NCBI GenBank assembly: GCA_903828695.1
Contig: CAIKNE010000088.1
Location: 1-41,864, forward strand
Direction of reading: 5' to 3'
From: an uncultured Burkholderiales bacterium
GTDB taxonomy: Bacteria; Pseudomonadota; Gammaproteobacteria; Burkholderiales; Burkholderiaceae_C
DNA length: 41,864 nt
The translations under genes and the position numbers were made by a program. The notes under the pieces were generated by a model. The model did no database searches. It worked only from the letters and a program-made list of their open reading frames with translations, and was not told the DNA's origin. This document shows positions 36,665 to 41,860 of the stretch, piece after piece; the first letter of the stretch is position 1, and each line of letters starts with the position of its first letter.

Positions 36665-36740
36665 GCGGGAATAGCTCAGTTGGTAGAGCGCAACCTTGCC
36701 AAGGTTGAGGTCGCGAGTTCGAGCCTCGTTTCCCGCTCCA
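36665..36740 (+). tRNA. tRNA-Gly (anticodon GCC)
   Basis: A 76-base cloverleaf with acceptor GCGGGAA/TTCCCGC, D-arm AGCTCAGTTGGTAGAGC, anticodon arm CAACC-TTGCCAA-GGTTG (GCC at 36698-36700), T-loop TTCGAGC and encoded CCA. Confidence 0.97.
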
Positions 36741-36750
36741 TACCTCTACA

Positions 36751-36776
36751 AAGGGAAGCTTTTGCTTCCCTTTTTT
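36751..36776 (+). terminator. Intrinsic terminator after tRNA-Gly
   Basis: AAGGGAAGC and GCTTCCCTT form a perfect 9-bp stem with a TTTT loop and a following T-run, lying between the two tRNA genes. Confidence 0.9.
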
Positions 36777-36794
36777 ATCAGAGTTTGGGCTTAC

Positions 36795-36868
36795 GGCGCG
36801 GTAGCAAAGCGGTTATGCACCGGATTGCAAATCCGAGTAGGTCGGTTCGACTCCGGCCCGCGCCTCCA
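36795..36868 (+). tRNA. tRNA-Cys (anticodon GCA)
   Basis: A 74-base cloverleaf with acceptor GGCGCGG/CCGCGCC, anticodon loop TTGCAAA (GCA at 36827-36829), T-loop TTCGACT and encoded CCA. It follows the terminator of tRNA-Gly, so it must be read from incomplete termination or an unseen promoter. Its 3' end marks the change to accessory DNA. Confidence 0.96.
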
Positions 36869-37563: not shown

Positions 37564-39237
37564 ATGCAACTTGAAAATTCAATTTTTTACGAGAGGCAGC
37601 CTTGGGTAGCGCATCGTACCTTTACCCCTTCTGGGGATGATCCGCGTACTGTCTTATCTAACGATAAAGACCATGAGTTCCTCAGGTTAGATGGTAACGC
37701 TTCGCTTGCGTGGAAACTGATTGCAGAAGATGGAGTTGGCAACCCAAATGATGTTGCACAAAAACTTAGTGTTACTGTTTCCGAAGTTCAAGTTTTACTG
37801 GACGACTTGTTAAACGCAAATCTAATAAAAATTAGAGGGGTTGAAGATAAATACACATCTGAGGTTGATATAAATCCAAATCATGTCCCTTCTTCTGAAA
37901 GATATCATGCTGGTGGATACACAGAGCCATCTCCAGGTGGCAGCAATCTGGAGGCAGAATTTGAGTTTCAAGATTGGGCTTTATCACATGGATTTCTTTG
38001 GTCAGCTTTGTGGGAAATTACATTTAGATGTAACGAAGCATGTGTTCACTGCTTCAACCCTGGGGCAAGTCATTCAGAAGGGCAGCGTGCCTATCGTAAA
38101 ACTGAAGAGCTTGAGCGAGATGAATGGCTAAAACTTCTTGACGAATTTAAATCTTTAGGCGTCTTTCGCCTACTTTTAACAGGTGGTGAAGTGGCACTTC
38201 GAAAAGATTTTTTTGAAATTTTGGAGGCGTGCAATGAACGTGGATTTTCTGTAACTGTATTTACAAACGGGACTCTGTTTGATGCAGATGAAATTAACAG
38301 ACTGGCAAATTTTTATCCTCACCGAATTGAGTTGAGTTTGTACAGTCCAGAACCCGAGGTTCACGATCGGATAACACGACTAAAGGGATCATTTGAAAAA
38401 ACACGCAATTCGGCTCTTCAACTAAAACAATTGGGAGTAACGGTTGCAATAAAAATGTCGGTGATGGCTGAAACTATCAATTCAGTCATTGCCTTTAGAA
38501 CACTCTGTGATGAATGGGGTATTGAGCCGCAAGTTGATTACAACATGTCACCCGGTGTTGATGGTGCACGCGAACCACTTCTTGAATTGTTGCCTGCTCC
38601 TTTGGAGTTGATAAGGGCAGCGATGACTCCGGGAATGCCTTTATTTGCAGGGGTCGCTGGTGCTCCAAATAAAAGCGATTGGGTAGAAAGAAAAGCCAAC
38701 CCAATCTGTGGTGCGGGGCGTACTACTATGTCGATTTCACCAGAGGGACATATTTATCCTTGTAACAGTTTGCCAATCCATGTCGGTTCGACAAGGACAG
38801 AGGGTCTTACTTCAGTGTGGAAAAATTCTATTTCTGGGGGAGCCTTGGCCACAAAACCGAAAAGCGAGTTGTCTCAATGGCAATCGATTAAAGGTGCTGA
38901 TTACCGTGTGTGTGGATCTTTTGATCGTTGTGCATGGTGCCACAAGTGTCCCGGAATGGCCTTGCTCGAGAGTGGTGATGAGTTAGGGCCTTCGACAACC
39001 AACTGTAGAAACTCTGCAGCAAGAATGATCGCATTTGATCTTATTGAGAAAGGCCGAACGCCTCAAAGTATTTCTTCTTTAGACCTTGAACCGCTTCAGT
39101 TGAAATACGCTGAAAATATTCCTTTATGGGAGCCCAACTTTAGTGTCGAGTCAAAAATATCTTTAGAGTCACTTAAAAAGAGTTTGAAGAGCAGAACAAA
39201 AGCAACTGCTCTTGAAAAGGATCCCTTGTTGGGATAG
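37564..39237 (+). CDS. Radical SAM/SPASM peptide maturase with PqqD-like N-terminal domain
   Basis: The start was set at the ATG preceded by AAAGGA (37554-37559), giving 557 residues; upstream in-frame codons fall in the AT-rich promoter. Residues about 30-92 look like a PqqD-type precursor-binding domain (LRLDGNASLAWKLI, then a winged-helix-like LLDDLLNANLIKI). The radical SAM cluster motif is CNEACVHC (Cys156, 160 and 163), followed by LLTGGEVALRKDF. The C-terminal SPASM region has Cys382, 400, 450, 456, 459, 462 and 481, enough for two auxiliary iron-sulphur clusters. Such enzymes form crosslinks or epimerise residues in ribosomal peptides. It is the first gene of the cluster; its likely substrate is the 32-residue peptide encoded 40 bases downstream. 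Confidence 0.9.
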   Translation: MQLENSIFYERQPWVAHRTFTPSGDDPRTVLSNDKDHEFLRLDGNASLAWKLIAEDGVGNPNDVAQKLSVTVSEVQVLLDDLLNANLIKIRGVEDKYTSEVDINPNHVPSSERYHAGGYTEPSPGGSNLEAEFEFQDWALSHGFLWSALWEITFRCNEACVHCFNPGASHSEGQRAYRKTEELERDEWLKLLDEFKSLGVFRLLLTGGEVALRKDFFEILEACNERGFSVTVFTNGTLFDADEINRLANFYPHRIELSLYSPEPEVHDRITRLKGSFEKTRNSALQLKQLGVTVAIKMSVMAETINSVIAFRTLCDEWGIEPQVDYNMSPGVDGAREPLLELLPAPLELIRAAMTPGMPLFAGVAGAPNKSDWVERKANPICGAGRTTMSISPEGHIYPCNSLPIHVGSTRTEGLTSVWKNSISGGALATKPKSELSQWQSIKGADYRVCGSFDRCAWCHKCPGMALLESGDELGPSTTNCRNSAARMIAFDLIEKGRTPQSISSLDLEPLQLKYAENIPLWEPNFSVESKISLESLKKSLKSRTKATALEKDPLLG

Positions 39238-39239
39238 GC

Positions 39240-39260
39240 GGGGGATTCCCCCATTTTTTT
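39240..39260 (+). terminator. Intrinsic terminator/attenuator between maturase and precursor genes
   Basis: GGGGG (39240-39244), loop ATT and CCCCC (39248-39252) are followed by A and seven T. It begins 2 bases after the maturase stop codon and ends 4 bases before the ribosome binding site of the peptide gene. Confidence 0.75.
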
Positions 39261-39277
39261 ACTTAGGAGAAATCATC

Positions 39278-39376
39278 ATGAAAATTTCAATTCGCATTGG
39301 TTACAGCAAGCGTGCAATGTCAGGTTGCAGCCGTGGCAATGAAAATAGCTGCGGTATCGGAAATAAAAACGGCTAA
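39278..39376 (+). CDS. Putative RiPP precursor peptide (32 residues)
   Basis: An ATG preceded by a near-consensus AGGAGA (39265-39270, 7-base spacing) opens a 32-codon frame ending at TAA. The N-terminal part (MKISIRIGYSKRAM) is basic and could be a leader; the rest (SGCSRGNENSCGIGNKNG) is rich in Gly, Asn and Ser with two Cys (17 and 25). Arg is at 6, 12 and 19. The small size, position between the SPASM maturase and three modifying enzymes, and the best ribosome binding site in the cluster argue for a modified peptide. The next gene begins 8 bases later. I know of no family with this sequence; cleavage site and modifications are unknown. Confidence 0.72.
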   Translation: MKISIRIGYSKRAMSGCSRGNENSCGIGNKNG

Positions 39377-39383
39377 TTTCATT

Positions 39384-40250
39384 ATGCTGGGACACCCATT
39401 TCTGGACACTATTTTGAGGCGACTTGAATTAGTTCCAGTGAATGGGTACCCAAAAGTAATTTCTACATTTCACCGTAGATCGATAGCAGTAAAAACCCAA
39501 GAATTTGAAGACAAGCTATTTATAGTTAAGGGAATAGGGTGGTCTCATGGGCCGCCTTGGACATTTTTATCTCCAAAAGACGATCAACTCTATTTTGGGT
39601 TGATGGATAAAAATTCTGCAATTAGAGAGTTGAGAGTATCCAATTGGTTCCTCAATGCGGGAATACATTCAACTAGAGTAATAAAATACGAGGTTTTGAC
39701 GGAAAACGAATTGTTATTATTTGGTTTAAATCAAAAAACATCATTTAAAAATGGTAACCAGGTCTCCCCGGTTGTATTGGTTACAGAAAGTCTTTCTGCT
39801 TTCCGTGTTAATGACTTTACCCCTAGAAATCATAAAGACTGGTTAAAAGAGTTTTTGACTCATAATAAACCCACAGAATTAGAAGCTCAAGATATTAGAA
39901 ATTTCATAATAAATTTCGCAGAGAAATTAGTGCTGAATATCGAAAAATATCAGTCGCTAGGTGGGGTTAACGATACTTTATCTGCTGATAATGTAACCAT
40001 AGCTGGCGAAATTACTGACTTTGAATGGATTTATGTGCCTGGTGTTCCCCTGCCTGATGGATGGACTGATAAGTATTTGTTTGAACGGCAAGAAAAAGAG
40101 GCAATTTACTATATTGACATAATGTTAGCCCTTTGTGAAGGGCTTTCAGTGGATATCACAATCAGAGAATTGGCTTCTATTGGTTGCAAAAAATTGCAAA
40201 ATAATGCAATTGGATTTTCCAAATGTTTAATGCGAATTGCAAAAGGATAA
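39384..40250 (+). CDS. SelO/YdiU-like (pseudokinase-fold) protein
   Basis: The start at ATG 39384 (288 residues) avoids overlap with the peptide gene; in-frame TTG 39297 and ATG 39339 lie inside it. With this numbering the protein has VKGIGWSHGP (48-57), comparable to the KGAGRTPYSR lysine motif of SelO. It also has AIREL.....LNAGIHSTR (79-98), comparable to IRE...SEAM..LGIPTTR, an FRV segment (140-142), and SADNVTIAGEITDFEW (200-215), comparable to NTDNMSILGLTIDYG with its metal-binding Asn and Asp. SelO is an AMP-transferring pseudokinase of about 480 residues, so this is a much shortened, remote relative. The role in peptide maturation is inferred: nucleotidyl or phosphoryl transfer, or a partner protein. 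Confidence 0.6.
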   Translation: MLGHPFLDTILRRLELVPVNGYPKVISTFHRRSIAVKTQEFEDKLFIVKGIGWSHGPPWTFLSPKDDQLYFGLMDKNSAIRELRVSNWFLNAGIHSTRVIKYEVLTENELLLFGLNQKTSFKNGNQVSPVVLVTESLSAFRVNDFTPRNHKDWLKEFLTHNKPTELEAQDIRNFIINFAEKLVLNIEKYQSLGGVNDTLSADNVTIAGEITDFEWIYVPGVPLPDGWTDKYLFERQEKEAIYYIDIMLALCEGLSVDITIRELASIGCKKLQNNAIGFSKCLMRIAKG

Positions 40251-40252
40251 AG

Positions 40253-40978
40253 ATGGAATTTTATGAATTTAACCAAAGTAAAATTGAAGCTATTTTTCCT
40301 GATCCTAAGTATCTCCAAATACAACTTATTGAAAAGTTGAATGATGCTCATGTAGTTGAAGAGCCTTTTCCGCATATTTTTATTAATAATTTTTTACCTA
40401 ATGATCTTCGCGACTTACTATTAAATTCCGTTTCTGAACTGGAATTTAGAAAATACTATGAAGGTGCTGTCCCAGTTTTTCATTTGACAGAAAAATCTCC
40501 GGTACCTTTATTATTTTTCAAAAACTACATATTAGATGATTTATTAACTCCTTTTTTTAACTCTATCTTTAACGATAATGATTTTAAAAAAAATATTGAG
40601 TTAAAAAACACCTCTGAAAAAATTACTAAATTAGATAAAGTGGAATACGGAAGTATTTATTTTGCTAGAAATCCTCCTGGAGGCAAAATAAAAATGCACG
40701 TAGATGATAACTTTGCTAGTTTTCAATATGTCTTTTACTTTGGGTACAAAGATGGAGGTGTTGCACCTACTACAGATTTATTACTATATCCTCAATCAAA
40801 TATTGACGATTACTCGGCTGATTTAAATTCAAAGAATTATATTAATTATGGACCTACAAATAATGGTTTGCTTGTCTTTGTAAACACTCCAAGCTCATAT
40901 CATGGTTTATTAAGTCCTTTACATAAGGAGAGATTAACGCTTTGCGTCTCTGCCCATTATTATTATAAAAACACCTGA
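40253..40978 (+). CDS. 2-oxoglutarate/Fe(II)-dependent oxygenase
   Basis: The start at ATG 40253, 2 bases after the previous stop and preceded by AAAAGGA, gives 241 residues; ATG 40223 inside the previous gene is also in frame. The N-terminal EEPFPHIFINNFLPNDLRDLL is typical of prolyl-4-hydroxylase-like 2OG-Fe(II) enzymes. The iron facial triad is visible as His149-x-Asp151 (KMHVDD) and His217 (SSYHGLLSP), with the 2-oxoglutarate-binding Arg227 ten residues later (KERLTL). It should hydroxylate or otherwise oxidise a peptide side chain (inference from context). The gene is very AT-rich compared with the chromosome to the left. Confidence 0.8.
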   Translation: MEFYEFNQSKIEAIFPDPKYLQIQLIEKLNDAHVVEEPFPHIFINNFLPNDLRDLLLNSVSELEFRKYYEGAVPVFHLTEKSPVPLLFFKNYILDDLLTPFFNSIFNDNDFKKNIELKNTSEKITKLDKVEYGSIYFARNPPGGKIKMHVDDNFASFQYVFYFGYKDGGVAPTTDLLLYPQSNIDDYSADLNSKNYINYGPTNNGLLVFVNTPSSYHGLLSPLHKERLTLCVSAHYYYKNT

Positions 40979-40981
40979 TCA

Positions 40982-41860
40982 ATGTCAATCAAAATTGCTG
41001 ATGGTCAATTTGCAAGGCCTACATACATTATTGATGAGCACAACGAAGCATTCTTAGTTTGGTCGAATATATTTAATAGTATAGCTCCAACTAAGCGTCA
41101 TCTGATACATATTGATGAACACGCTGATTTCGGAATCCCATTCCTGACTAAACCAGTACCTGATCAATTTTCTACTAAAGAACAACTTGTTGACTTTACT
41201 TACAGGCAATTAACAATTGGAACTTTTTTAATTCCATCTGCTATTAGGAAATTTTTTTCTACTTTAATATGGATAAAACCATCTTCTCCAGTATCTTCTG
41301 CGCTTGAAAATATTTATATTAATTACAATCCGGAATTATGTAAAATTTCAGTTTTAAATAATCCAAATTATAATTGTACTCAACTTAAATATATTTCTAG
41401 TATTTGGCGGGATGAAATATTTAATTCTGATAATTGGATGCTTGATATTTGTCTTGATGCTTTTAATCCAAACGAAATCCTAACACCAGATCCATTTACT
41501 CTCGAAATCACAAAGATTGAATTTGAGAATTTAAACTATGATGATATTAATGTTTGGAATATGAGATATGGCGCCTCTGTCACTACAACAATTAAAGATA
41601 ATAGATATTATTTTAATTTAGATTTTTCAAAATGGAGTTCCCCGGAAAATATTAATTTAAATAGTAGTCTTGATAATAATTTGAAAAACTTCGAAGAATT
41701 TATAAATTCAACTTCAATTTTACCAGATGTTATTACCATTTGCCGATCCATCAGATCAGGACACACAAGGAGGGGTGAGGTTGAGTGGATACAAGAATTT
41801 ATTTTAAAAACATTAATGTATAAATATAAAGGTGGATTCAAGGACGAAGTGCAACGTTGA
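40982..41860 (+). CDS. UPF0489 family protein, putative peptide arginase
   Basis: This 292-residue protein of the UPF0489 family has the arginase-like fold. The first metal motif is HIDEHAD (His43, Asp45, His47, Asp49), preceded by the family-typical YIIDEHNEAFLVW. The second motif is WMLDICLDAF (Asp155, Asp159). Family member OspR turns peptide Arg into ornithine in landornamide biosynthesis; the peptide encoded here has three Arg. In the second motif the middle Asp of the usual DIDLD is Cys157, so metal binding may be altered. It follows the oxygenase by 3 bases, without a ribosome binding site, hence coupled. It is strongly AT-rich. The window ends just after its stop, so the cluster may continue. 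Confidence 0.78.
   Translation: MSIKIADGQFARPTYIIDEHNEAFLVWSNIFNSIAPTKRHLIHIDEHADFGIPFLTKPVPDQFSTKEQLVDFTYRQLTIGTFLIPSAIRKFFSTLIWIKPSSPVSSALENIYINYNPELCKISVLNNPNYNCTQLKYISSIWRDEIFNSDNWMLDICLDAFNPNEILTPDPFTLEITKIEFENLNYDDINVWNMRYGASVTTTIKDNRYYFNLDFSKWSSPENINLNSSLDNNLKNFEEFINSTSILPDVITICRSIRSGHTRRGEVEWIQEFILKTLMYKYKGGFKDEVQR

Follow-up and report, generated by a model that had tools for sequence, protein, structure and literature searches.

The right-hand end of a contig from an uncultured Burkholderiales bacterium likely carries a biosynthetic cluster for a ribosomally synthesized and post-translationally modified peptide (RiPP) of an undescribed type, lying in a variable region that follows a tRNA-Cys gene, and we propose roles for its enzymes. 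The window analysed is one entire contig (C88, 41,864 bases); the draft genome to which it belongs totals 3.02 Mb in 161 contigs. Five + strand open reading frames (ORFs) encode a radical S-adenosylmethionine (SAM)/SPASM protein of the RiPP-maturase type (rSAM; 37564..39237, 557 amino acids (aa)), a 32-aa precursor peptide (39278..39376; MKISIRIGYSKRAMSGCSRGNENSCGIGNKNG), a SelO-like protein with a protein-kinase-like fold of the SelO/YdiU branch (gene 3; 39384..40250, 288 aa), a 2-oxoglutarate (2OG)-Fe(II) oxygenase-like protein with an HxD...H...R motif (gene 4; 40253..40978, 241 aa) and a UPF0489 protein of the peptide-arginase family in which Cys157 replaces a bridging Asp (gene 5; 40982..41860, 292 aa). 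Their coordinates agree with the spacing of 40, 7, 2 and 3 bases given in an initial annotation of this DNA. The proteins belong to named folds or families and keep most active-site residues; enzyme families that modify peptides, with activity predicted from family, adjoin the precursor gene. Only 4 bases follow the final stop codon before the contig runs out, so that a truncated operon is likely. Rightward continuation of the cluster had been suggested, and that part stands; the argument made for it, that no transporter or protease is visible, falls away because the window is the whole contig and their absence is uninformative.

Substitutions in the tiny peptide gene noted at the outset are distributed as in a coding gene, which marks its product as a peptide under selection and the likely precursor. 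A ribosome-binding site, AGGAG (39265..39269), lies 8 bases before its ATG, and a search of the draft genome with the peptide gave one match. Homologues were collected by exact 5-residue words, giving at least 14 for the SelO-like protein, at least 24 for UPF0489 and at least 8 for 2OG, lower bounds because the search sees proteins that share such words. Three gene 3 relatives, P0001, P0002 and P0006 (93, 78 and 53% identical), have database starts that lie 5' of the probable one; their N-terminal residues are therefore a translation of the peptide DNA in another frame. Inside the peptide ORF this overlapping frame carries four replacements in P0002, four in P0006 and none in P0001. By the smallest change, all eight require a substitution at the second position of the overlapping codon, where the third position of a peptide codon falls; seven are silent in the peptide by the genetic code and the remaining one changes Glu22 to Asp. 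Past the peptide stop, six more replacements across the three relatives do not favour the second base exclusively. In the body of gene 3, single-base replacements fall at bases 1, 2 and 3 in the ratio 27/15/6 for P0002 (second-base share 15/48) and 33/27/8 for P0006 (27/68), excluding multi-base or ambiguous cases (15 and 70, respectively). With these shares, the chance of eight out of eight at the second base is about 2 in 10,000; if first and second bases are taken as equally likely, it is 4 in 1,000, the more cautious figure because the gene 3 body is itself selected in its own frame. The test reads positions 2 and 3 of the peptide codons, position 1 being mostly invisible, and uses the extensions of P0002 and P0006 plus P0001, the other 11 SelO-like matches having no comparable extension. 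Residues 1–12 (1–20 for P0006) lie outside the comparison. The tail N(E/D)NSCGIGNKNG is compatible with the letters of all three extensions.

The small ORF might instead be a regulatory leader peptide or attenuator, the enzymes having some other target. A terminator-like hairpin with a T run (39240..39259, + strand; a possible attenuator) lies immediately 5' of it, the ORF is short, and it sits directly 5' of gene 3, overlapping the database starts of P0001 and P0002. We nevertheless give this reading little credence: the hairpin is 5' of the ORF and not 3', the third-position pattern extends to the peptide's last codon, and the partner families, SelO excepted, are known as peptide modifiers. 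Attenuator peptides typically have a run of one amino acid, and this peptide has none. The hairpin itself (GGGGGATTCCCCC, 39240–39252, with its T run) is no evidence on its own because terminator-like sites in the region (five) are not above shuffled expectation (mean 4.3). It could separate the peptide and downstream genes from the rSAM transcript.

The UPF0489 protein matches PF12640 (E 7.5e-12, 46.4 bits, over the cut-off of 27) and OspR (8brp, E 3e-21), the one PDB sequence matched. The OspR centre comprises MnA, held by His12 and Asp43, MnB, held by His41 and Asp167, and Asp39 and Asp165, which hold both (PMC10028609). Five of these six ligands are kept in all 25 rows of our alignment (A2; 24 homologues plus the window's protein), whereas the metal-bridging Asp165 aligns with Cys157, a Cys in 25/25. 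The family assignment first made from UPF0489 motifs stands, with the other five ligands, and the protein lacks the Asp of motif 3. Glu19, which precedes the motif 1 His, and Ser256 are also kept in 25/25 rows, and Ser259 in 24/25. The peptide arginases OspR, FlmR and OhkR (pfam12640) share the family and the DxHxD and (E/D)EHxEA-type motifs; their LDIDLDYFSC, described as the standard motif for FlmR and OhkR (PMC12703449), reads LDICLDxF here. Judged from the alignment, this is a UPF0489 clade with a Cys-containing DICLD-type motif 3 instead of DIDLD, and the result describes that clade and not the whole family because the homologue search favours close relatives. In the open-access literature, outside which most subscription journals lie, we found neither a paper on a D232C arginase and manganese nor, among the papers listed, a Cys-ligated ureohydrolase.

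The protein is a candidate arginase. It is also quite possible that the cluster makes the same kind of RiPP with a UPF0489 protein that is no arginase, carrying out another C–N hydrolysis or redox chemistry, or binding the peptide alone. The invariant Cys at the bridging position speaks for this, as does a score of 146.9 bits against the FlmR/OhkR model NF052474, under its cut-off of 350. The retention of the five other ligands, Glu19 and both Ser positions speaks against it, as do an Arg in the core peptide and the strictness of Cys conservation, which points to a working metal site and not to decay.

The gene 3 product adopts the SelO variant of the protein-kinase fold, with 14–16% identity in structural alignments. 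We take the SelO active site to be K113, E136, R176, R183, D252, N253 and D262, positions that agree with structure 6eac. K49, E82, R141, D202, N203 and D212 are invariant in 15/15 rows and correspond to SelO K113, E136, R183, D252, N253 and D262, the K and E equivalences being matched by motif only; the Arg176 position is Thr in 14 rows and Val in one. The SelO-type motifs first pointed out here hold, in fold and in six of the seven residues, but Pfam does not recognize the family: PF02696 stays far under its cut-off (best E 0.42, in one of the 15 members), and no PDB sequence was matched by the SelO-like profile. Compared with SelO/YdiU protein adenylyltransferases, whose kinase-like fold and six active-site residues it shares, the protein is short (288 aa, not about 480), has no Arg176 and is encoded beside a small peptide gene. 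Strong divergence and the missing Arg176 could mean that the protein is catalytically dead and serves to present the peptide, transferring no nucleotide. We think this rather unlikely, as the active-site K, E, R, D, N and D are invariant in an alignment whose mean column identity is 55%. Viral contigs, tried as a source of relatives, gave 16 pattern matches and no true relative.

The gene 4 product bears out the proposed HxD...H...R of a 2OG oxygenase: H149, D151, H217 and R227 are invariant in 9/9 rows. It scores under the Pfam cut-off for PF13640 (E 0.0017, 19.7 bits, cut-off 27), and six of the nine members of its alignment (A3, the window's included) match that family at E ≤0.1. One of its eight homologues, P0039, which makes up one of the nine rows, is a 99% copy without a stated source and is the window's own protein or nearly so. 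Against PDB, the 2OG profile had three hits, all weak (E 0.38–0.63) and all to a complex I subunit.

The radical SAM/SPASM assignment is confirmed by the CxxxCxxC cysteines C156, C160 and C163, by PF04055 (6.4e-24) and, for the SPASM cysteines, by PF13186 (9.3e-6). One SPASM Cys column, at residue 453 (window 38911–38960), is Phe here and Cys in 24 other rows; nearby Cys456 may substitute for it. The rSAM resembles SuiB, SkfB, PqqE and CteB (presumably structure 5why) in the CxxxCxxC core, the SPASM cysteines and an N-terminal extension of possible winged-helix character, and the RiPP maturases SkfB and SuiB head the matches to its structural model. Among the 25 families listed of the 64 matched in NCBIfam, none reached its cut-off (best 102 versus 500 bits). 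The PqqD part of the original PqqD–radical SAM–SPASM description fares less well than the rest. The N-terminal region has no Pfam PqqD match, a PqqD profile from 13 acidobacterial ORFs scores no better than −0.4 bits on any stretch of the rSAM (not significant), and structural support for a PqqD-type domain is weak. Weak winged-helix matches to residues ~44–97 make this part a candidate leader-binding domain (RiPP recognition element, RRE). The first model residue aligned to SuiB is 4–6, but the aligned range shows its two ends alone, and the model has low pLDDT.

The nearest rSAM sequence relatives are acidobacterial (30–34% identity over the alignment) and lie 3' of PqqD genes (in locus L002, PF05402 at 7.1e-13); a PqqD-like ORF, picked by motif, is present in 13 of the 15 acidobacterial-type loci examined. 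These and other rSAM loci were not accepted as counterparts of the complete cluster: in tblastn against the loci compared, the other four products matched pieces of the window's own genome alone (E ≤0.01), the best non-self match being the SelO of L059 (0.021). In L002 and L031, unlike here, PqqD is a separate gene, and no SelO-like, 2OG or UPF0489 gene was found there. The stretches with the PqqD and radical SAM/SPASM genes (L002 8848–12309; L031 8878–11191) seem to be another conserved cassette, whose neighbours read as HPr-kinase-like and, in L002, also nucleotidyltransferase-like. On plasmids, the rSAM matches 399 records, none over more than 80% of its length, the best listed being mycofactocin, PqqE and unnamed radical SAM proteins. 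PADLOC matches the rSAM to viperin models (5.2e-17) and gene 4 to a 2OG model (0.0012). We do not favour a role in defence, as viperins are not known to have a SPASM domain, an N-terminal extension of this kind or a peptide gene.

Taken across enzyme families, the search that the initial annotation recommended gives a mixed outcome, with matches to PF04055/PF13186 and PF12640 and scores under the cut-offs of PF13640, PF02696 and NF052474. That annotation also knew of no pathway with this set of genes. We found none in the open-access literature, and likewise no account of the SelO-branch protein, of the UPF0489 clade with its bridging Cys or of this precursor; yet a radical SAM enzyme, a UPF0489 arginase and a 2OG/Fe(II) hydroxylase are not new as a trio, as biphenomycin-type clusters have it. 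In those pathways, according to PMC12707348 and PMC12257519, ornithine is produced by a UPF0489 arginase and hydroxylated by an αKG/Fe(II)-type enzyme, and cross-linking is the work of a B12 radical SAM enzyme. The biphenomycin (bip) and biphenomycin-like (pbs) clusters resemble ours in bringing a radical SAM enzyme, a UPF0489 arginase and a 2OG/Fe(II)-type ornithine hydroxylase to one precursor. They differ in a B12-dependent radical SAM enzyme, an MNIO with an RRE partner, a JmjC- or cupin-type hydroxylase and an FRF core, in the same sources. Our peptide has no FRF motif, no MNIO is seen among the five genes (the part past the contig end being out of view), the UPF0489 site has its Cys, and there is a SelO-type protein in addition. 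Recruitment of kinase folds has precedents in AviCys cyclases (PMC12291118) and a nitrile-forming pseudokinase (PMC13060819). In the main text of a SelO neighbourhood analysis (PMC10364804), UPF0489, RiPPs and radical SAM all go unmentioned.

A search for the same gene order elsewhere, also suggested at the outset, was successful in part: genes 3–5 recur in other contigs, in pairs only. We inferred co-location from the identical length of the homologues' longest contigs. One size (2394) is common to P0001 (SelO-like) and P0043 (2OG), and one (13810) to P0005 (SelO-like) and P0022 (UPF0489). Four link UPF0489 to 2OG: 8837 (P0016, P0040), 2291 (P0018, P0041), 2685 (P0015, P0042) and 5775 (P0021, P0046). 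All six shared sizes are pairwise links, and they include relatives down to 42–53% identity. The 13810 contig gave no 2OG match, which may mean that the gene is optional or too divergent there.

The sampled relatives of the host lack genes 3 and 5, in samples that overlap, so that their totals are not additive. Among 369 class genomes (one extra match being a true SelO) and 399 family genomes (E 1e-6), the SelO-like gene occurs in the window's genome alone, as does gene 5 among 330 order and 398 phylum genomes (E 1e-5). A class search for UPF0489 in 350 genomes, aimed at Asp-type members, gave two matches, the window's own and a fragment (G340, a 92-codon frame); 14 control genomes gave no UPF0489. 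Plasmid records contained no SelO-like and no UPF0489 match, and phage records no UPF0489 match. Radical SAM matches (E 0.001) occur in 64 of 101 genomes, the best besides its own at E 1e-19 over 173 residues.

G+C falls along the gene order (0.43, 0.42, 0.36, 0.30 and 0.30) against 0.477 for bases 1–37200; low G+C and absence from the sampled relatives would fit recent acquisition. The cluster sits behind lon, tRNA-Gly and tRNA-Cys (tRNAs at 36665–36868). This lon/tRNA stretch is partly common to 7/7 relatives searched, and the ORFs after tRNA-Cys differ in 4/4 inspected (L074–L077). Going by these comparisons, the two tRNA genes behind lon mark a variable site. In L076 the gene directly after tRNA-Cys has weak integrase matches (0.0076 and 0.029, under cut-off), its best weak match being to Trp repressor (0.0038). 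The sharp G+C drop and absence from sampled relatives could also come from mis-assembly, a foreign fragment having been joined to the host backbone at tRNA-Cys, and the position at a contig end of a 161-contig draft genome suits this. It is improbable in our view: tRNA-Cys looks naturally variable, four relatives each having different DNA there and one of them the weakly integrase-like gene, and genes 3–5 recur pairwise elsewhere. Mis-assembly would leave the cluster itself untouched.

For the RiPP cluster that we favour, we propose the following scheme. Peptide residues of about 1–16 would form a leader to which the winged-helix-like N-terminal region of the rSAM binds, leaving the core CSRGNENSCGIGNKNG. 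The radical SAM/SPASM enzyme would form a radical cross-link, most likely with Cys17 and/or Cys25, and the UPF0489 enzyme would take the guanidine off Arg19, the sole Arg of the core, at a two-metal site in which a cysteine thiolate, and not an aspartate, forms the bridge, the metal probably being other than manganese. Hydroxylation of a core residue may fall to the 2OG protein, the target being an Asn or, as for BipG and PbsQ, ornithine. The SelO-like protein may transfer AMP or UMP to a side chain, where it would be the final group or would activate Asn, Glu or Ser for a subsequent step. Genes for export and for removal of the leader would lie past the contig end. As originally supposed, all four proteins may act on the peptide.

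A bolder proposal, which we advance with low confidence, is that this is a new class of RiPP: a nucleotidyl transferase of the SelO branch would serve as a peptide maturase, AMP- or UMP-ylating or activating core Asn, Ser or Glu, alongside a UPF0489 enzyme whose Cys-bridged two-metal centre would give it chemistry not known from ureohydrolases. Both the SelO role and the Cys swap are directly testable, the 32-residue substrate being easy to express. If true, the arginase metal site would have undergone a natural Asp-to-Cys swap at its core, in 25/25 sequences, and SelO-type nucleotide transfer, so far on cellular proteins, would extend to natural-product biosynthesis.

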